This document shows positions 3,001 to 53,582 of a DNA stretch of 64,000 bases, piece by piece. The notes beneath the pieces were generated by a model. The model was not told the origin of the DNA. It did not search any database and saw only the letters and a program-made list of their open reading frames with translations. Source of the DNA: Rhynochetos jubatus (Eukaryota; Chordata; Aves; Eurypygiformes; Rhynochetidae); NCBI GenBank assembly GCA_027574665.1, contig CM050652.1:39832307-39896306 (forward strand). Reading direction: 5' to 3'. Both the position numbers and the translations under genes were made by a program. How positions within the stretch are numbered: position 1 is the stretch's first letter; each line of letters opens with the position of its first letter.

Positions 3001-6000
3001 GAAGAGTCCAAGGGAACCAATGTGACTTGAACTGCTCTGTACCTCACCGAAACATTATTTTTTAGTGATGTCTTCTCATTTCCCAGTGTCAATGCATTTG
3101 ACTCACTGTGGGTTATACATCCTAACAGATAACATCATGCTTTGCCCACTGAGGAAAACTGACTTCCTTAATACAAACACATCAGGGTCCTTCACTGGTC
3201 CTGAAAAAAGTAAGAGACTTATTCACTTAAAGATTCCAGGAGTTACCCTTCGATCCTAAGCACTTTCATTCTGCAGCCTGGGAGGGAAAATTTGTCACAC
3301 TTGTCTCAAAAAGTCTTCAGGGTCGATGCTCACACCTAGACAGCTTTAATTGACAGACCAGAAGAGGCACTCGCAGCATGTGATTCATCTCACCTATCTC
3401 CAATGCCTACTTTAGCATAAGATAAATTGTGCTCTAAAACTGGCCATTTTTCTCCACTGACTGTAATGGAGACTAATAACCTAGGGAGCGCCAAGTGATT
3501 AGCTCAGATGCAGATGTCAATGTCTGGTCAAGGATGAATTCCAGTCACTGTGATCACCATTAAATGAAGGTATATTCAAGATAGCTTTAAACCTGCAGCA
3601 ACTAGCCCCTGCTTTGGCATGGTACTCCACGCAGATAGCAAAATGAATCCAAAATGCTTACCTAAATCTGCCACACCTGGCAGGATGCCACAGCAGAACA
3701 CAGGCAACTCAGATCAAGAGCTGATGCTCATCAGTCCTTTCCAAGCACTGGTACAGCCAAAAGTAACGTGACAGTAGCCACAAAGTGCTGAGGTAGAGCT
3801 AAAGTATGCTGCCTTTCAGCATAGGCGAACTGTATGCACATGGTTCTCAAATGGTTGTCACGACACTCTGAGTCTGGAGGAAAGAGAATTCTTTGCACCG
3901 ACATCAGAGGGGTTGTTTATTCTCCTTTGGAAACAGGATTTTCTGATCTTTGCATTCAGACATTTTCAAAGTCTGCAGAGGGATTAACTCAGCATCTTCT
4001 AGATCACTTTTTTAAAAAATAAAAAGTTTTAGTAAAGTTGTCCCTTCTCTGTTTTACCGTTTGACCTGATTGAAAATCAGATCTATTGATTTCTTTAATT
4101 GCCCTTCTATTGTGACATCTTTCTTATGCAGTGACAGACTGCTTGTAATGTCAACTAAACTTGATTTAAAACTGGTGCTGTACATGCTGCATGCTGCCAA
4201 ACTGGCATATTTAAATTGATGTACCCTGCATTTATTTACAGCACTTTGATATAAACACAGATGCAGAAGAATCTGTTCACAGTTTCTCCATTCTATAAGT
4301 ATTTTCTCAAACCATTTGCATGCTCTGGTGAATTTCTGTATTTCTTTACTGTGATTGCCTTTTGGAAGGAAGATTGTATTCTATATAACGGTGAGAAAAT
4401 GCCTGAAGACTTATGACTTTTTATATGTCACTGTTATGCTTTACTAATACGAAATTAGAGATCAGAGATCAACCTATAGTTTTCCTGGCTGGAATTAATT
4501 ATGCACTCCTCAATGAAATATGTTTGCAATAAACACCAGAGAGGCTGTCTGTCAGATCAGAAACTAATATTTCTGCTGCTCAGAGAGCGTAAGTTCTCCC
4601 TGCTTGGGAGATAGTACAGAGAGGTAGAGAATAAAGGACTTGATAAGGATGCAGAGACAAACGTAATGTCAAATTATAATTAGTATTCAGGTTTCTTGCT
4701 GTTTTCATGCATTTTTAAAGACTAGGTGTTATTCAGTTACACATACTAAAATTCAGTTAAGCTCTATTAGGTAGTGCATTCTTGTCCATAAAAGGTTTAT
4801 AGATCCTAAAAATATCCTGTAGTTTCCTAAATATGATTTGAACAGCCCAAAACTGTAGTCTAAGAAGCCCTATAAAGTATTCTGCTAACACTTAATGCCA
4901 AGAGCACCAATAGCTTTACTCATATTTAAAAAAAAAAGCAGATGCACAATCCTTTGCCGGATAAGAAACTTATGGAATGAAAATTAACATGGAAAAACAT
5001 TTTAAAGCTACCCTCTGAAAAGTGCATTTTGCCACTCTTCTCTTCTGTCTTCTTTTTTCTAGAATATTTCAGTTTGAGGTCTGGGCTGAAATATATCACT
5101 TCCCATAATGTAATTTTTTTGACTATCAGTTCTGCTCATTAGGTAGCTTTTCTATTAAATTAAGTATTGTGCTTTTAGTGGTATGGTTGGCTTAGTAAAA
5201 CTTGACCTGATTTGAATCTAGGAAAATAGGTTAGGATATGAAACCCAACCTTAGCACTTCAGCTATGAATTTTAACAAATAATGCTTTCTTTTGTCTCTT
5301 GTAGCTACAAATTATGCACCATCAACATACCAGATGCATAAAAACTATGTTTATGTTTCTATCAGTCAAGATGTGGTAATTCACAATTTTTGCTCGGTCT
5401 CATCTCAGCTGCAAAATAAATCAATAATAATTAGGTGAACAAGTGCAGGGATACTGTTGGTTAACAAACAGGCTTGAGCTCCTTTTGATACACCTCACCC
5501 TCCCCTTCAGAGAGAGGAAACTCACACATGGTCCACAAGGTTACAGGAAAGCTTCATAGAAGTAACAGTTTATTTAGACCAATTACTTCTTCTATTAGAC
5601 CAAATATGGCCATATTGTCCAGACTTAGGTCAGCAGAATTTTCTCCTGTTATTCCCACCTACCCATTGAGGAAAAAGCCTCAATTTCCCATGCATATGTA
5701 TGTGGAGAAGGTAATTTCTGCTGGTAATCTTCCACCTGGTTGAAATGCATTCATTTTTCCTGGGAAGAACAGCTCCAGAAAGCAGCAGGGTAGAACAAGA
5801 GGTATTTCTAAGTCTACCCAAATCTAACAGCCAGTACCTATAACTGTTCTCCTGCCTACAGACAGATGAATTGTAGCCTTACACCTCCGAACCCGAGAGC
5901 TGAGAGAATGAGAAGCATGTTGTTAAGTCACAAAGGACCACACTTTCTGTGTGAGGGCAAATGAACACATCATTTCTCCTGCAGAAGCAGTTGCATTTTA

Positions 6001-8054
6001 TACACACATAATTATTTGCACAAAAGTTTGTTGTACTAATAAAGAGAATTTGTGCAGTTAAATTAATATTTGATAACAAAAATGTTTGTTTACTATCGCT
6101 TGACTATGTTAAAGTGCTATTTTTCTCACCATTCTGACATGGCTGTCTAGATCATTTAGGGAAGTCCAGATTATAAACATTTTAAAAGGTCTTCAGTTTC
6201 CTTATAAAATATAAGCTGTATCATGTAGGCAACAAGATCCTTGGGTTTTTTTCATTTTCAGTCTGAAATTCTATTAATTAAAAAGTTAACTAAAAAATAA
6301 AAATTAAATAGAAGGTCCCAGCAGTGGGGAATTTTTAATAGTGATTATAGTGAAGAGCTGGTTTTCTGCATAGACAGGACTCTTCTGTAGACACATGTGT
6401 TTTTTTCTCACCTCATTCTATTGTACTGACTGTTTCAAAATATCTAAAAACATCTCTTGCACTAAAGAGGCTTACTTTTTGTTTTCAAAGTTACCGCACT
6501 GCAGAATTACAAAGATTAGCACTGGAAATTTATGAATAGATGTCATTCCTCTAATCTGATATTATTCAAGTGTTTCACAGCTTAATAAAGTTGCAATGAC
6601 AGCAAAAATCTTTATATACAAGAAACTTTAATTTCTATCCCACAGTATATAACTCATACTCTCTAAATTTAACTTCTGCTTATTGCTTATCTCCTTATAT
6701 TCAATAATTACCATGTCTTGATGGTGTTACTTGCCAGCTGGCTACAATTTTTGCCCTGTACCATCAGTGAAATTGCAAAAGCAATATATACTTCTTAGAA
6801 AATTTATGTTGCTCTATTATCAAAAGGAATAATTTGTTGGGTTTTTAACTAAAACATACAAATTGATTTTTTTTTCATCATTTTTTATTTAAAGCAACAC
6901 CATTCAATTTTCTGAATTTCAATTAACTGGAAAGGGATAAGGCAACCTTTGGACATCTCCCGAAAAAAAATTAAAATATCTGTCTTCAGTGATTTTCAAA
7001 GGACCCTCCACTCCAGTAATAAAAATTGTGACTGATTTCTTAAGGACATTTGAGTTTCATAAGTATATATGCATGTGGTTTATATGACCCACAGAATTAC
7101 ACTCAGTGTTTCTGTGAAAATATACTTCTGTCACATAATAGAATCCAATAGTATTCTTAACCTAAGTGAGACTTGAAAGTAAGAAAATGCTTTGATTTGT
7201 GCCCCAAGGAATAACAGAAAAATAAAATAATTGGATTTCCTAAAAGGACACCCTGCACTGAACTTTTCTATTATAGCTTTGTAACATGCAAAAAGAGTAG
7301 TATGCTTCTTAGTCTGAAATATGCCTATACAAAAAGTTGATCAGGCCTGAGGTTTAATTTAGTTCCCAGTCTCACTGAATCTTGTTACTGGAAGTGATCT
7401 CATACAGAAGCTGAGTGATGTCTTAGAGCTTGCCCTTGCCTGAAGAGATACAGCCCATTCAGAATTATTGATAATTATACCATAATTTTTCCTGCAGAGG
7501 TAGAAACAATGTTCAATTAAATACAGCATACACTGTTACATATCTACTGGCAAAACAAGCCTTAAAAATGCTCCCTGCTGCACTTGAGATATCTATAGAG
7601 ACCCCTCCAGCATTTTCTGTATTATCTCTTATATTACTTTTTTATAGGTGTTTTTTTCAAAATTGATGTTTTGAGTAGCAGCAGTTTTGCTTCCTCACCC
7701 ATACCTAAGAATCAGACTCCAGTGCCCTGATCCATTGGCAAGAGAGCATATCTGGATGCATGATAAAATGGGGGGGTGGCCAGATTAGCTCATTTGTTTT
7801 GTCTTCCATTGTGCTATTCGTTATTTCCTGAAATCCAAAATACTGCTGTTATTCCTCAGGCTGGGAGTCAGCAACCTATTTATGTTTCCATGACATCATT
7901 CTTTCTGTGAGCAGCTAAGCAGATTTCTATTGATGTGATATTTTTCAGCACCCTAGAGAGTCAACCAGTAGAGCTAAATTTCTCTTTAATCATACCCAGA
8001 GGAGAAGTCAATGACCTGTATTGTTGAGCAATATTATGTATTGTGGTGAATTAA
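1..8054. other. AT-rich non-coding DNA, no gene seen
   Basis: No open frame exceeds about 85 codons and none resembles a known protein. CpG is rare throughout, as expected for methylated vertebrate DNA outside islands. Small structures are a T/G-rich tract at 187-236, a 7-bp inverted repeat at 541-559 and a 12-bp palindrome ATGCATATGCAT at 2239-2250. None is convincing as a functional element alone. I see no recognisable transposon; strongly decayed copies could be present but invisible by eye. Confidence 0.7.
187..236. repeat. T/G-rich low-complexity tract with (TTGG)n
   Basis: Four consecutive TTGG units at about 205-220 lie within a longer tract made only of T and G. It is a simple repeat with no sign of being part of a larger element. 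Confidence 0.8.
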
Positions 8055-19479: not shown

Positions 19480-20265
19480 GTGTTTGCGTGGCAAGGTTTG
19501 GCAGAGGGTATCTATAGGGGTAGCTTCTGTAAGAAGCTGCTAGAAGTTTCCCCTATGTACGACAAAGCCAATGCCAGACAGCTCCAAGACAGACCTGGCG
19601 CTGGCCAAGGCTGAGCCCATCAGTGATGGTGGTAGTGCCTCTGGGATAACCAATTTGAGAAGGGGGAAAAAAGACTGTGCAACTCCAAAGAGAGGAGTGA
19701 GGGTACGTGAGAGAAACAGCTCTGCAGAAGGCCAGTGGGGAAGGAGGGGGAGTAGGTGCTCCAAGTGCCAGAGCAGAGATTCCACAGCATCCTGTGGTGC
19801 AGACCATGGTGAGGTGGGCTGTGCCCTTGCAGCCATGGAAGGTCATGGTGGAGCAGAGATTCACCTGCATTCTGGGGAAGACCCCATGCCGCAGCAGTGG
19901 AATACCAGAAGGAGGCTGTGACCCCATGGGAAGCCCATGTTGAAGCAGTCTGTTCCTGAAGAATTGCACCCCATGGAAGGGACCCACACTGGAGCAGTTC
20001 ATGAAGAACTGCAGCCCATGGGAAGGAATCATGTTGGAGAAGTCCATGGAAGACTGTCTCCCGTGGGAGACCCCCCCACACTGGGCAGAGGCAGAGTGTG
20101 AGAAGTCCTTCCCCTGAGGAGAAAGGAGCAGCAGAGACAACATGTGTTGGACTGACCACAACCCCAGTTCCCTGTCCCCCTGAACCACTGGAGGGGAGGA
20201 TGTAGAAAAATGGGGAGTAAAGCTGAGCCCTGGAAGAAGAGAGGGGTGGGGGGAAGGCGATTTTA
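19480..20265 (+). mobile_element. Avian LTR-type retroelement fragment (probable solo, truncated LTR)
   Basis: This block matches, from memory, a high-copy LTR-type repeat of bird endogenous retroelements. The landmarks occur in the expected order. It begins with TGTTTGCGTGGCAAGG at 19481. An AAGCTGCTAGAAG segment lies near 19533, then a region of repeated CCCATGG-containing subunits, a stretch ending in CCACAACCCCAGTTCCC near 20158, and a purine-rich GAAGAGAGGGGTGGGGGGAA close. The 3' portion with the polyadenylation region is absent, so the copy is truncated near 20265. No gag, pol or env sequence adjoins it. Long open frames on both strands, up to 218 codons on the minus strand, are by-products of its composition. 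The class (ERVL versus other) is uncertain, and target-site duplications were not identified. Confidence 0.7.
19922..20090 (+). repeat. Internal 45-47-bp tandem subrepeats of the LTR-type element
   Basis: Degenerate units each begin with a CCCATGG/CCCGTGG motif, at 19922, 19969, 20014 and 20059, giving spacings of 47, 45 and 45 bp. Each unit has a following TGGAGMAGT-like segment and a GAAGAMTG-like segment. Further degraded units can be traced upstream to about 19830. The near-multiple-of-three period keeps long minus-strand frames open and explains the apparent ORFs. Confidence 0.75.
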
Positions 20266-25528: not shown

Positions 25529-28125
25529 CTGGAAAAGTTTCTTCTAAGGAAGATGGCAAAACCAGCAATTATTATAAGGCTTCTTCTGTGAAATGGTCTT
25601 TGTTTCATTCTATGGTCAAGGGGAAGAAAGGAATAAGTTGCTCGGTCTGTAAAATGAACAAATCTGCCATTGGGTAACTATTTCCAGTGTTTGCAGTCAT
25701 AGAGTTGGATTATTCACCTAGTGAATCAGGTTATCCTCAACCTTTTGTCCAAATCAGGGTGCACCAAGCCTTTGAAGATTAGCAAGCTGATTAATTCATA
25801 TTTTACCCCTACAGTCAAAGCAAAAATCTTTTCAGATCAAGAAAAGTGGAGTGTTTCAGCAGTCTGTCAGTGGACTACCAAACAGACCAGAAGCCACCAT
25901 CTTCCCAAAACCTCAGAGGTTACTTTTTGATGTTTATGCAGGTCTTTTTCACTGTCTCCCACTGATCACACTCTGGAGAACAAACTGGCTGCCTCTGTTA
26001 GTATTCAGCACACCATGATGTGTGTTGGGTGACCCAGAGAAGCTGTTTATATCTCAGGGCACTGTCTTGATTACTGGGGGTGTTAGTGGCCTCCTTGTGT
26101 TGCTGACTGGAAGGGGAATGTGTAGCAACTGGGTACCTAATCCATGCTGTTTGGATAGACGTTTGCAACATAGGAGGATCAATCTGGGGTTGTGTCTTCC
26201 CTGTTTCCCTGAAGTCATCACCTTTAAAATGTTTCACTGTTGCTTAGTTATCTCATTATCATCAGACTCTTTTCTTAATTTCATCCAGTTAGTTTCAGAG
26301 ATGCTTTTCTGCACTTTGTTTTCTCCTTAACACGAAGTGTGTTGATGAAGGTAGGATAGCTAACCCATAAAGCCAGAAGCTGTTATGACTAAACACAAGT
26401 TTATAATAGGAAGGAAGATACTGTGAGCATTAGTGAGTCTGGTTTTACTTGTTATAATGTTTAAGAATACAAACAAACTGAAGCAGTCCTCATAAACATC
26501 TTAAATAAAATGATACCTTTAAACTTTATTGTTAAATCATACACTGAACTTAAAGGATATCGAGATGAAGGTAATGAAGGATGCAACAACTACGGTGTGC
26601 AGAAATTAATACCATGATTCTAGAGAAAGGTTAATTGACTACTTTAAAATATTACTGGAGAGTTCTAATACAGCCCACATGTTTCACAATTGTTTGATCA
26701 TGTGAGGTCTGGACAAACATCATGATTAATTAACCAGTGCAAAGTTTTGTATTGTCAGAGAACAGGTCTTCTTTCACTGGACTGAAAGATCCGTGCCATT
26801 GTAAAGTTAGCATAATAATGGCTTAAACTGTAGAGTTTAAGGCTAGGGTATAAAATATTCCTGAGCAGTCTTCAGGATTTTCTCTAAAATACGTTCATTC
26901 TTAAATGAAGTTCAACTGCAATCTGCAAATTATTTTCTAATCTATATTATTCCCAAATCCCAAATGCAGAAAATTTCATTTTCTACTTTGTGATTTTACT
27001 TGAATGAAAAGACTAATACATTTTGAGAAAAAGATGGAAAAGTTGAAAACCAGGTTTTCACTTCACAAACACAGATGCTATCACTGTCACTTTTACCTTT
27101 CTCTCTTATGCCATAGTGTTATAGCACTTAAAGGTTCTGAGCAGCTCCAATATGCCCTTGCTGTTAGACAGCTAAAGATGTATTCTGACAAAACGGAAAT
27201 ACCAAATGGGAAGAAGAAAGAAGGGTGAAAGCCATGTTTCCATGGTTAACACATGGAGCTGTCAGGATTAGAACACAGTTCTTCCACGTCTTAGCCAGCC
27301 CACAGGCTTTATAAGCTTGTATATAGACACAGAAATTCTTGCTGTATTTACTAAGGCTAACAAATTGTTTCAAGCTTCTGTTTGGTTCAGATACAATAAC
27401 AATTTAAATTTTTCTGGCTGCTGGCAACTCCTTCCCATCATTTCTGAAATATGTTAAATGTAATAGTATATGGTTAAAAAATGTTGGGTCTCCCCAGGAT
27501 TTCAAAATAAGGCACTTAAGAAGATCTAAACCTGGCCTTGCACACCTGCAAATATTGATGGTACATCTGAAATGGGTAGCAGTGCTCATTTTGTGAAGGT
27601 CTGTCTGTTCATTTTGCATGAAATGAGATGAGGATTTAAAAGTGTGTTTTGTCAGTGACAGAGAAAATGCCACCTAAAGAACCCTCAGCTACAAAAAGGG
27701 GAAAATCCCTAGGGAAATAAGCAAACAAGGAACAAGCAACACTTCATGGACTTTGCAAAGAGACCTGAGTTTTCTCATGACATGCTCTGAAATGGTGTGC
27801 AAGTGTCTTCCAGCTCTCCCAGGGAAACTCCTTTAGCTCAGAAGCTGCTGCAAAAGGCAGACGGCTGATGTCTCATATGATCATTAAAAAATTTGCAACA
27901 TTTACAATGCATTTCCCCTTTTTAATTTCATTCTGCACAGCTGATATGTCTCTCTGATAATTCTCTCTCTAGAAGAATAGCTCATGTTTTCCACACACAC
28001 CTCCTAGGCGACAGATACTTACGCTCAGTGCCAAAGGTTTTCTCAGCCTTGATTCTCAGGCAGCTGAGATTAAGGCACAGCAGCACCTAGGACAACAGCA
28101 TGCAAAGATGTTCTGTAGCCAGCTC

Positions 28126-28200
28126 CATAGAATGTCAGAATCATTTTGGGTCAGAAGGGACCTTGAAAAATCATCTAGTCCAAGCCCTCTGACATGGCAG
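28126..28200 (-). mobile_element. CR1 LINE 3'-end fragment, degraded
   Basis: On the plus strand this reads as the reverse complement of the avian CR1 3' terminus. CATAGAATGTCAGAATCATT is followed by a GGTCAGAAGGGACCTT segment and an ATCATCTAGTCCAAGCCC segment, matching the 3' untranslated end of CR1. Only about 75 bp survive. The pentanucleotide array begins right after it, on the side where the rest of the CR1 would be expected, so array growth or a deletion may have removed the remainder. Confidence 0.75.
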
Positions 28201-28210
28201 AAGAAGATGA

Positions 28211-28320
28211 ATGGAATGGAATGGAATGGAATGGAATGGAATGGAATGGAATGGAATGGAATGGAATAGAATAGAATAGAATAGAATAGAATAGAATAGA
28301 ATAGAATAGAATAGAATAGA
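28211..28320. repeat. Compound pentanucleotide microsatellite (ATGGA)11(ATAGA)11
   Basis: Eleven perfect ATGGA units at 28211-28265 are followed without interruption by eleven perfect ATAGA units at 28266-28320. The two motifs differ by one G/A transition. The tract abuts a CR1 3'-end fragment whose terminal sequence (CATAGAAT on this strand) resembles the repeat unit. Confidence 0.97.
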
Positions 28321-28717
28321 ATTTTCTTCTATGTGTCTCTGTCTAGTGGGTTTTAGTTTCTTGAAGGTAAATCACAACTCAACTGTCAGGAAAAAACAAA
28401 TCCATAGCAAGAATGAATAAAATAAAATTATTACAAAGTACTGAAGCTCTGTATAATTTTTCCTTTATATAAAAATTGATGAGATAGTGTTATCAGTTTC
28501 ATATTTATGAAAGTATGAGGGAACCTGTCAGAAAACTAGATTTCAGAGAACAGTTCTTCACTCACTTGTCATCTTTTGCTTCCCATTATTCTTTTCTTTC
28601 ATTTTCACTAGAATTATAAACTGTTGATTCTGTTATGTAGCCAAAATGACTGCTCATTCATCTTGCTGCATTCCTCTAATTTACTTTTGAGACAGATGCT
28701 TTTAGGGAAGTTCCTGT
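28321..28717. other. Spacer between microsatellite and satellite array, nothing seen
   Basis: AT-rich unique-looking sequence with no open frame of note and no recognisable repeat. It separates the pentanucleotide array from the 170-bp tandem array. Confidence 0.6.
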
Positions 28718-29808
28718 TTCTGACTCAGACCTAAGGGGGGCCATGGGCAGAAACCGAGGCCACCAAATATTAGGGTTAAAGTTAGGATCCAGAGAACCAA
28801 AAAGACCACAAATGCAGGAAAAATTGGGATTGCAAAGGCTTACTAAGAGGACTACGACACTGCTCCAACATTGCTCCCTTCCCAGCTTTGAAAGCCAGTA
28901 CCGAGAGGGGCCTGTACCAGAAACCAAAGCCATAAAATATTAGAGTTAGGGTTAGGGTCTGAAGAAAGAGAAAGCCCACAGGTGCAGGGGGATTTGGGAT
29001 TGCAAAGGCCTTCCAAGAGGAGCACAGCACTGCATCGACAGTGCTCTCACCTCAGATTTCACAGCCAGAAGCCAGGTGGGCCATGGCCAGAAACTGAGGC
29101 CGCCTATTATTAGGGTTAGGGTCCAGAGAACGAGAAATCCCACAGGTCCCAGCATAATTGAGATTGCAAAGGCCTGCCAAGGGGAGCACAGCACTGCACC
29201 AAACTTGCCCTCACCCCATCTTTCAGATTCAGAACAGAGGGGGGGCGGGCACCGGAAAACGTGGCAGGCAACTATTAGATGTAGGTTTAAGGTTAGGGTC
29301 CGGAGAAACAGAAAGCCCTCAGGTCCCAGCATAATTGGGATTGCAAACGCCTGCCTAGAGGAGCACGGCACTGCACCAACATTGCCCTCACCCCAGCTTT
29401 CACAGCCAGAACCCTGGTGGGCCATGGCCAAAAACTGAGTCCACCTACTATTAGGGTTAGGGTTAGAGTGCAGAGTACCAGAAAGCACACAGGTCCCAGC
29501 ATAATTGGGATTGCAAAGGCCTGCCAAGAGGAGCACGGCACTGCACTGACTGTGCTCCCTTCCCAGGTTTCATAACCAGAACCCATCTGTGCCAGGGAGA
29601 GAAACTGCAGCTGGCAACAGTCAGGGTTAGAGTTAGGGTCCAGAGAATCAGAAAGCCCACAGATTCCAGCATAGTTTGGATTGCAAAGGCCTGCCAAGAG
29701 GAGCACGGCACTGCACCAACCTTTCTCCCTCCCCATCTTACAGAGCCAGAACTCAGAGTGGCCAGGTCCGGAAACAGCAGCCAGCAACTATTAGGGTTAG
29801 GGTTAGGT
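28718..29808 (+). repeat. Satellite-like tandem array, about 170-bp units with TTAGGG hexamers
   Basis: About 6.4 head-to-tail units. The conserved core TTGCAAAGGC recurs at 28830, 29000, 29164, 29341, 29511 and 29681, giving spacings of 170, 164, 177, 170 and 170 bp; the fourth copy has one base changed in the core. Each unit contains one to three telomere-like hexamers (TTAGGG or one-base variants), then a GTCCAGAGAA-like motif, a CCCACAGGTCCCAGCAT-like stretch, the core, and an AGAGGAGCACGGCACTGCA-like stretch. It ends with an ACAGCCAGAACC-like and GGCCATGGCCAGAAAC-like segment. The array ends on the right exactly in a TTAGGGTTAGGGTTAGG tract. Open frames of 164-194 codons on the minus strand and 120 on the plus are artefacts of the repetition. 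I do not recognise the family. Confidence 0.95.
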
Positions 29809-51002: not shown

Positions 51003-51210
51003 TCATAGAATCACAGAATGGTTTGGGTTGGAAGAGACCTTAAAGACCACCTAGTTCCAACCCCCCTGCCATGGGCAGGGACACCTTCCACTAAATCAGG
51101 TTGCTCAAAGCCTCATCCAGCCTGGCCTTGAACACTTCCAGGGATGGGGCATCCACAGATTCTCTGGGCAACCTGTGCCAGTGCCTCACCACCCTCTCCG
51201 AGAAGAAAAT
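51003..51210 (-). mobile_element. CR1 LINE 3' end (ORF2 tail plus 3' UTR)
   Basis: The typical avian CR1 3' terminus in reverse orientation. On the plus strand it begins TCATAGAATCACAGAATGG, the complement of the CR1 3' terminal repeat. It continues through the GGTTTGGGTTGGAAGAGACC and CCATGGGCAGGGACACCTTC landmarks into the ORF2 tail. On the minus strand the last 38 codons of ORF2 are intact (51207 down to 51094), including [16 protein letters not shown] and [16 protein letters not shown], with the natural stop at 51093-51091. Homology stops at about 51210, so this is a heavily 5'-truncated insertion, the usual outcome of CR1 target-primed integration. The intact tail suggests a moderately young copy. 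It cannot move by itself. Confidence 0.95.
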
Positions 51211-53582
51211 TTGATATATCTGCCAGAGAGATGATGTCACTGACATCATTTTATGAAAATACAAGGAGTATGTAACTGGTCTGCTTACAAGTGACTGACA
51301 GCACATGACCTTGGCATAAAGCTAAGTTTATGTTGTTGATTTACTGTAACAAGTTCCTTCTGGGTTTGGTAATTAATATCTCCTGAGTTAAGTGCCTCAT
51401 GTCATCGCACTAATAAATCTCGTCCGGTGCATAAAGAAGTTGAATTTTCTGAGGTGAGCCTGCTACTGAATTTATATGTACAAAAAGCAATAGTCCTCTA
51501 TTTCCTTTCAGGGACTTAAATCATTCACTCACATATTTTGTCTTTTCTAAGGTTTTTATGTGACAGCTCTCTTTAGATTGCCAGAACCTGGGATGAATTC
51601 CATGGAGCCAAAACCTGTATGTTATAATGGAAATATATATTTGCTCTGTCACTTAAATCCAAATGAAATGCTTTCCAGACATTACAAGCATTTGGACTCT
51701 TAATATCAGTCTTGTGTGAAATCCAGTCTGTTTTTGAGCATCACCTGACAATAAATTACCTGAGAACATGGATAGCTGCTGTGTATACATAACCACTAGA
51801 AAACAGCAAGTAAATTCTAGCGGGGAAACTGCTAATTCTGCCCTCTCACTCCAGGTAACTTCCATGACTGTAGAATTACATTGTTACCATTGATTAGCAC
51901 ATCAACAACATGGCAATTTGCAGTAGATCAAATGGCTGCTAAAAATAGCTTCCTACTACTCTCCGTGGGAAGGGTTTGTAAATTTTTCAGTAGCGTTGCC
52001 CTTTTGCCCCAGCAGGGTGAGATGACTGTCTTCTCCACTTTTTCCCAGAGGTGGCTTCCCGCTCTGCTCTTTTAGCTCAGTGTATTTTACAGTGTGTAGA
52101 AGTAGCAGCGCTGCATAGACCTCACCGGTTTGGATTGCTCTGAAAAAGCATGCTTGACTGGAGGGTAACATAAAGCCTTCTGAAACTTTTTCATGCTTTC
52201 TTTCTCATCCTTTGTAAGTTCATCAGTCTTTTACTGAAAGCCATACCTTTTTTTTAATTTTTAGAGAATCTGTATGTTGTTATTTACTTGCTGCTATTTC
52301 ATATCATACCCTTTGAATATTTAAAATGTTGTCATAAATATCTCCTATTTGTCCATAGCAAAGTATTTACATATAAAAAGGGTTATTTAACATAAAAATC
52401 AGGGTAAATACACAAATCAAGGCAAGTGTAATTATGATTTCCATAAGGGCAAAAGAGTCTTGCAAGACCCAGTGGCACTGCAGCAGCCATATATGCAGCA
52501 TATGTGCTTCCATATGTGCAGGAAGGATTATGTGACACCAGAAGGTGCAAATGGGTGGAAAGACCCAGAGAGTTTTGCTCAATGCCCTTAACTATCTTAT
52601 CCACAGCCAAATCTGCTGTATGTGAGGATCTGGATGCTCGGATTTTGTTGCTGCTTTGGCTTTGTGTACTCCAGGCTTCCCACCTACCACAACATGGTGT
52701 TCTGGCAAAGCAAAAAACATGCATCAGGAGGATTTCAAAAGTCTTTGGTCTGGTTTGCTGTCATAGAGAGAGGAGTGCTTAGTTATTTTCCTGAAGTCAT
52801 AAGCACATCGTATTTATATTAAATGTTATTATTTAGTATCCTTCGGTTTAGAAGTTAAACTATTTTCCTTGTGCATGTGTGTCTAAATGCAAGAATGCAA
52901 ACAGAGCAAAGGGAGATCTTTTATTCTTAAGAAAACAATGTTCAAGTCGTTTTCATTAATCTGCTTTTAAAAATTTCTTTCATTGGATCAAAATTTGCCA
53001 ACCAAGCTTTTCCATTCAAAAAATATTTGACCAGTTCTACCTGCTATAAAATATCAAAAAGCAACTGGATTTTCATGTGGAATTTCAGCTAAAAACAGGA
53101 GAGGCTGAAAGTCTTTTTCTGCCAGTGTTAAAATGCCCATGATATGTCTAAAAATCTTTCTGACAATTTCCTGATCTAACTTGAGGAAGTTTTATGTTAC
53201 ATCTATCTCACGAGCTAAGGAGGACTTGATCACATAACAAAACTATCCTTTCTGAGCTAAGTCATCATGACTTTATTATATTTGTCAGCTGCAAGCAGAA
53301 AGAATCCTCAGCAGGAAATTTTTGTGCTTCAGAGGACTCTGTTTCACCAAACTGAAAGTAATCATAAAATAATTCACTTGGGAAAGATAATTTTAATAGG
53401 AAAACAAAAAGAGTGGTAATTGAAATGCAGTTAAAAATGCTTAATAACTTTAGAAAATCTCACACAGAGAGAAGGTTACAACATTTAATAATTCAGCCTC
53501 ATCTAGCATGAGAGTAAAAATAGTAAAGGCTAGGAAGTGTCTTGGATAGTGAAGATAACTAATAGAAGTTATATGGAATCAC

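Follow-up and report, generated by a model that had tools for sequence, protein, structure and literature searches.

An array of TTAGGG-bearing satellite units, probably an isolated outlier of the large satellite blocks of the same genome

The window, the whole 64-kb stretch of DNA analysed (C5:39832307-39896306), contains a short array whose unit belongs to a satellite family that forms large blocks elsewhere in the genome. The array is probably an isolated outlier of this block satellite, a fragment that was joined into a chromosome break and then decayed without function. A graded series of similar islands is scattered over many chromosomes.

The array and its telomere hexamers

The array was confirmed as a real head-to-tail repeat with TTAGGG-type tracts, consisting of six head-to-tail units and a partial unit at each end (28717-29808). 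Tandem Repeats Finder reported positions 28734-29807 with a period of 170, 6.3 copies and 74% matches, and the score of 982 was the highest among 14 rows for the window; self-BLAST moved the left limit to about 28717. The spacings given in the first-pass annotation proved exact, the distances between a common word in successive units being 170, 164, 177, 170 and 170 bp. In the alignment, pairwise identity among the six full units was 70-83%. The G+C content of the array was 0.52, compared with 0.33 to 0.46 in the 2-kb bins of the window. BLAST at E ≤ 1 found no further copy of the unit in the 64-kb window, the three short matches being at chance level. The array, its units and its hexamer tracts are located as follows.

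28717..29808, + strand: whole satellite island (Tandem Repeats Finder, self-BLAST extent, alignment)
28734..28903, + strand: unit 1, 170 bp (alignment)
28904..29074, + strand: unit 2 (alignment)
29075..29235, + strand: unit 3, about one hexamer shorter (alignment; spacing 164)
29236..29415, + strand: unit 4, about one hexamer longer (alignment; spacing 177)
29416..29586, + strand: unit 5, holding most of the genome-search query 29433-29602 (alignment)
29587..29747, + strand: unit 6 (alignment)
29748..29808, + strand: partial last unit with hexamers at its end (sequence, alignment)
28770..28787, + strand: hexamer tract of unit 1, degenerate (sequence)
28940..28957, + strand: hexamer tract of unit 2 (sequence)
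29110..29121, + strand: hexamer tract of unit 3, two hexamers (sequence)
29275..29298, + strand: hexamer tract of unit 4, about four hexamers, degenerate (sequence)
29451..29468, + strand: hexamer tract of unit 5 (sequence)
29621..29638, + strand: hexamer tract of unit 6 (sequence)
29791..29807, + strand: hexamer tract at the right edge of the array (sequence, edge placement)

The first-pass annotation had placed TTAGGG hexamers in every unit; an intact copy was indeed found in each, although several of the tracts are degenerate. It had also described a single hexamer orientation and a right end within a hexamer tract, and both were seen in the sequence: positions 28718-29808 hold 11 TTAGGG and no CCCTAA, compared with 13 and 7 in the remainder of the window, and in 2,000 mononucleotide shuffles of the same interval the TTAGGG count never exceeded 3. 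The hexamers make up about 12-24 bp of each 170-bp unit, and no uninterrupted hexamer run makes up the array. The spacings of 164 and 177 bp arise because unit 3 has about one hexamer less and unit 4 about one more.

Blocks and islands of the same satellite

A search of the unit against the source genome, which the first-pass annotation had proposed, was performed with one window unit (29433-29602) on 1,331,379,947 bases in 148 contigs. At least 59 places matched at E ≤ 0.001 (40 of 1593 candidates scored), and the matches fell into two classes, blocks and short islands amid other DNA. Moreover, a 36-base core of the block unit had 22,867 + 27,433 = 50,300 exact matches in the genome and none with the reversed control; at 176 bp each, these copies correspond to about 8.9 Mb. 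The large arrays bear out the suggestion of a dispersed satellite with a nucleosome-scale unit carrying telomere hexamers. The family consists of head-to-tail tandem units of one length class, in high copy number and in long homogenised arrays. The window array itself is short and not homogenised: the mean K2P distance among its six units was 0.286, compared with 0.019 among units of the C11 block, 0.043 for C13 and 0.030 for C128. The extents of the blocks below were taken from short sampled stretches, the blocks not being read end to end.

C11, 8.740 to at least 9.000 Mb: block (sampled)
C11, 13.734 to at least 14.001 Mb: block (sampled)
C13, 8.330 Mb or earlier to at least 9.800 Mb: block (sampled)
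C14, 16.5 Mb or earlier to at least 17.523 Mb: block (sampled)
C19, first base to at least 233 kb: block (sampled)
C128 (unplaced contig), first base to at least 578 kb: block (sampled)
C22, first 1.2 kb: satellite variant, 87% identical (sampled)

The block unit was 176 bp long on C11 and 177 bp on C13 and C128. Block spacings were mostly six apart, with 176 (209 times) and 170 (10 times) on C11, 177 (184 times) and 171 (26 times) on C13, and 177 (45 times) and 183 (6 times) on C128; therefore, unit length depends largely on how many hexamers are present, both in the blocks and in the window. Runs of four hexamers accounted for 182 of 259 runs on C11, 203 of 308 on C13 and 43 of 57 on C128, as counted intact in ten 10-kb block stretches, where a run broken by mutation scores as several.

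On a subtelomeric nature, which the first-pass annotation had considered typical of such a unit, the sampled positions speak both ways and on balance do not support it. On C11, C13 and C14, the blocks lie in the interior of the contig. Of the contig starts read, two (C11 and C13) show a telomere next to other DNA, and both run from TTAGGG into a different G+C-rich repeat of about 62 bp, not the satellite unit; this ~62-bp repeat is the true subtelomeric repeat at these two starts. Among the four ends named, the contrary cases are C19 and C22, which start within the satellite, without a telomere. The blocks may be centromeric or pericentromeric. The ~62-bp repeat directly inside the telomere occupies 6326-7208 of the C11 start stretch and 1303-2378 of the C13 start stretch.

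Several further observations were made in the sampled stretches. Equal-scoring matches recurred every 704 bp on C11 and every 708 bp on C13, that is, every four units, which hints at higher-order repeats inside these blocks. Beyond the block of C128 (0.7-1.5 Mb), three samples have stretches in common such as GCTGCATTTTGGCTGCC, probably another repeat. The C13 block contains a spacer of about 1.15 kb (sampled stretch, about 1117-2269), which by eye seems to resemble the reverse complement of the C17 DNA between two satellite remnants (stretch 4779-6230); next along C17 comes a 22-bp repeat in an array of 3.4 kb.

Exact words were also used to find islands. The island-type junction word CAACTATTAGGGTTAGGG had 14 genome matches, lying in ten islands including that of the window, none in the blocks and none with the control. 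The core word with the island-type base had 204 genome matches (control 0), and among the matches listed, at least 12 loci outside both the blocks and the compared set look like further islands (C2, C3, C4 twice, C5, C7, C8 twice, C13, C16 three times), of which C8:18.5 Mb alone was read, in part. The compared set comprised 17 islands with both edges of each: the window and those at C1:58.6, C2:28.9, C3:102.5, C4:33.7, C4:45.5, C5:14.3, C5:26.9, C6:15.4, C6:22.8, C8:20.3, C8:24.5, C11:8.49, C15:19.9, C17:16.7, C22:2.5 and C22:5.3 (Mb). These 17 are not a random sample, because they were found via similarity to the window unit or via exact words. The smallest has about one unit and the largest about fourteen. 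Both unit orientations occur in two of them, C3:102.5 and C6:15.4, and likewise at the C8:18.5 locus; in C5:14.3, a four-unit stretch is repeated at a distance of 673 bp.

Probable insertion, divergence and origin of the array

Island edges were set by local alignment. The phases of the 34 edges were scattered all round the unit, and 6 of the 34 lay in hexamers against 3.6 expected (p = 0.14), which is not a significant enrichment; hexamer-directed insertion was rejected on this count. The right edge of the C1 island, which the alignment had placed too far by a few bases, by eye also lies in hexamers, giving 7, and the C17 edges are imperfect, with more satellite about 1.1 kb past the right one. 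No sequence was common to the 600-bp flanks of the 17 islands. Among these flanks, five short pair matches were found, and two of them each joined the left flank of an island to its own right flank and are direct duplications (2 of 17 islands). At C1:58.6 Mb, a 27-bp sequence is present on both sides with 25 of 27 bases identical, and hexamers stand at the start and end of the array. At C15:19.9 Mb, the duplicated sequence is 20 bp long and identical in both copies; one copy adjoins the right end, and the other lies 220 bp ahead of the left end, as though additional DNA had entered along with the array. One of the duplications was detected in the 50-bp flanks and one more in the 600-bp flanks. 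At the other 15 islands, the window included, no convincing target duplication was found, and the best flank match of the window had p = 0.136 and, in the 50-bp-flank test, 0.54. Furthermore, the marks of a transposable element, namely fixed ends and common flanks, were absent from the 17 islands and their 34 edges.

Break repair leaves such traces: ends at scattered phases, a target duplication now and then, inversions, and additional DNA. A like range of outcomes accompanies telomeric insertions at breaks in the horse, according to PMC7215372, and the interstitial telomeric sequences of horse and human treated there resemble the present islands in that duplications (2 of 17) and inversions (two islands) are found here too. 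Those sequences are TTAGGG runs, mostly joined in register with the repeat, whereas here the inserted DNA is satellite and the edges are not significantly tied to hexamers.

Divergence (K) was calculated from the consensus of the 17 islands after removal of CpG sites and of strongly truncated units. The islands lay at K 0.022 to 0.167, the window being the farthest of the 17; it was also the farthest from the block consensus (0.197). All 17 resembled the island consensus more closely than the block consensus, a closeness that is partly circular because those islands built the consensus. At six sites that distinguish the two consensuses, 30 of the 36 cells of the window carried the island state. 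Neutral sites in birds accumulate 2 to 3.3 changes each per billion years, and at such rates a K of 0.167 would mean about 50-85 million years. This is not a clean clock, because block-edge units on C13 and C128 are similarly diverged (K 0.149-0.166, nearly the level of the window) and the tree splits the window units. In this weakly supported tree, which predates the retrieval of eight of the islands, the window units did not form one clade, and the window was grouped with C5:14.3, C5:26.9 and C1:58.6 (support 80/40).

In six other islands (34 units), the hexamers and the remainder of the unit are equally decayed: among non-CpG cells, 52 of 558 hexamer cells and 394 of 4285 other cells were changed. 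In the window, the counts were 10 of 102 and 115 of 815. This equal decay argues against a telomere-like role kept in the islands, and the window array likely has no present function. Within a 54-column core in the middle of the unit (around ATTGCAAAGGCCTGCCAAGAGGAGCAC), differences were less than half as frequent as in the remaining columns outside the hexamers: 113 of 1999 versus 430 of 3170 cells in 40 units of seven islands, where cells are not independent and C5:14.3 holds near-copies, and 26 of 300 versus 89 of 489 in the window alone. The slower core, found even in islands, speaks against pure decay after insertion, and part of the island variation was probably inherited from arrays with a constrained core.

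On the favoured reading, a satellite of 170-177 bp units with TTAGGG hexamers on one strand builds blocks of hundreds of kilobases elsewhere in the genome, and a fragment was likely cut or copied out of an ancestral array, possibly via an extrachromosomal circle. This fragment was likely joined into a chromosome break during repair, and the island has probably decayed in place since then. Family membership, the copy number of the core, the sampled block positions, the divergence, the scattered island ends and the hexamer steps in unit length are observations, whereas the repair route, the age and the lack of function are what we infer. Counting against this reading are the 15 islands without a convincing target duplication, the window units not forming one clade, the nearly equal divergence of block-edge units on C13 and C128, and the slower core in the islands. 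The reverse course, in which a short dispersed repeat came first and a few of its copies grew into blocks later, agrees with the island state of the window at most of the diagnostic cells and with the (partly circular) closeness of all islands to their own consensus. We nevertheless regard it as unlikely, given that the islands hold several units each with random phase and ends, as expected of pieces of an existing tandem array, and are without mobile-element features that could explain dispersal before amplification. Of the idea in the first-pass annotation that the array is a seed of a dispersed satellite, the dispersed family stands and "offshoot" fits better than "seed".

The array could also be what is left in place of a larger lost block, from an old centromere or heterochromatin, and its position as the most diverged of the islands would suit such an origin, as would the other islands on C5 at 14.3, 26.9 and (by pattern only) 60.5 Mb. 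This account is quite improbable, since the array is sharp and short, the 64-kb window has no other copy, and similar islands are scattered over many chromosomes. Delivery of the units by a mobile element has a precedent in oyster Helentron elements, which contain satellite-like arrays according to the excerpts of PMC7492417; the many different phases of the island ends, and 600-bp flanks alike only in the five short pair matches, of which two each link both sides of a single island, make it very improbable here. A relic of chromosome fusion, or telomere repeats captured and amplified on the spot, had both been put forward in the first-pass annotation. Hexamers in every unit and a right edge within a hexamer tract favour these ideas, but there are no head-to-head hexamers (all run one way), similar islands lie on many chromosomes, and hexamers at island edges are not significantly enriched. 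In addition, the non-hexamer part of the unit is common to the blocks and recurs in large numbers elsewhere; the 50,300 core matches therefore refute an on-site birth of the unit, and we consider fusion or capture extremely improbable.

Related satellites and other features of the window

TTAGGG forms part of a larger satellite in some birds (excerpts of PMC7348932). In the chaffinch (Fringilla coelebs), satellite monomers contain short TTAGGG clusters, according to the title of Liangouzov et al. 2002 (Russ. J. Genet.), as cited in PMC10887557, PMC7348932 and PMC12111239. By that title, the chaffinch repeat resembles the present one as a bird satellite with short TTAGGG clusters within a longer monomer, and TTAGGG clusters were found here inside each monomer. 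A TTAGGG-bearing bird satellite is, as far as the title goes, a kind already in print (chaffinch 2002), and the present satellite may be the chaffinch family itself. No description of this unit was found in a literature search outside which most subscription journals lay, searching with the sequence letters of the unit gave no matches, and no TTAGGG-bearing satellite appeared in the excerpts of PMC8687609, PMC11375038 and PMC7757076. Satellites that build blocks also occur as single units or short arrays outside them, as in TCAST1 of Tribolium castaneum (PMC5844308), 1.688 of Drosophila and dispersed human alpha satellite. Each of these is a major satellite with euchromatic islands outside its blocks, as here; in contrast to the present family, they are not described as carrying telomere hexamers in the excerpts available.

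The satellite with its tens of thousands of units and graded islands is of more interest than the window island. Because satellites turn over fast, a record of earlier states does not usually survive. Old versions would be preserved in islands that strayed into ordinary DNA, so that variants of one satellite could be ordered and dated. We tentatively raise the possibility, which we think has less than an even chance of being right, that this is the main centromere-type satellite, built on telomere motifs, each unit carrying a TTAGGG cluster, with the number of hexamers in the cluster setting the unit length in 6-bp steps. It may have shed fragments into chromosome arms for tens of millions of years, and the islands (0.02 to 0.17) may be a fossil record of the succession of variants and of how the present block type took over. 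In practical terms, telomere FISH and qPCR assays of telomere length would likely be confounded in a bird whose interstitial TTAGGG clusters number in the tens of thousands.

Long open frames run across the array; they were set aside as a side effect of the repeat, which is rich in G+C and has a length that three mostly does not divide, and an open frame of the array, used as a protein query, gave 335 candidates and none at E ≤ 0.01. The array had no match in phage records and none in viral contigs. In prokaryote contigs, a 19-base word occurred at four loci; since a comparison of these loci with the block unit gave no match at E ≤ 1e-5, the occurrences were attributed to chance. Rfam and tRNA scans of the window gave no matches. 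Some 400 bp to the left of the array, positions 28119-28322 hold a worn CR1-like 3' end and, after it, an (AATGG)/(AATAG) microsatellite (28209-28322, 99% matches by Tandem Repeats Finder). A CR1-like 3' part at 51004-51230 is better preserved than the one at 28119, and we take both to be CR1-type 3' ends. Both suggest a bird as the host, and the copy at 51004 is the stronger hint. The window also contains a minisatellite with a 45-bp period and 2.2 copies at 19952-20053.
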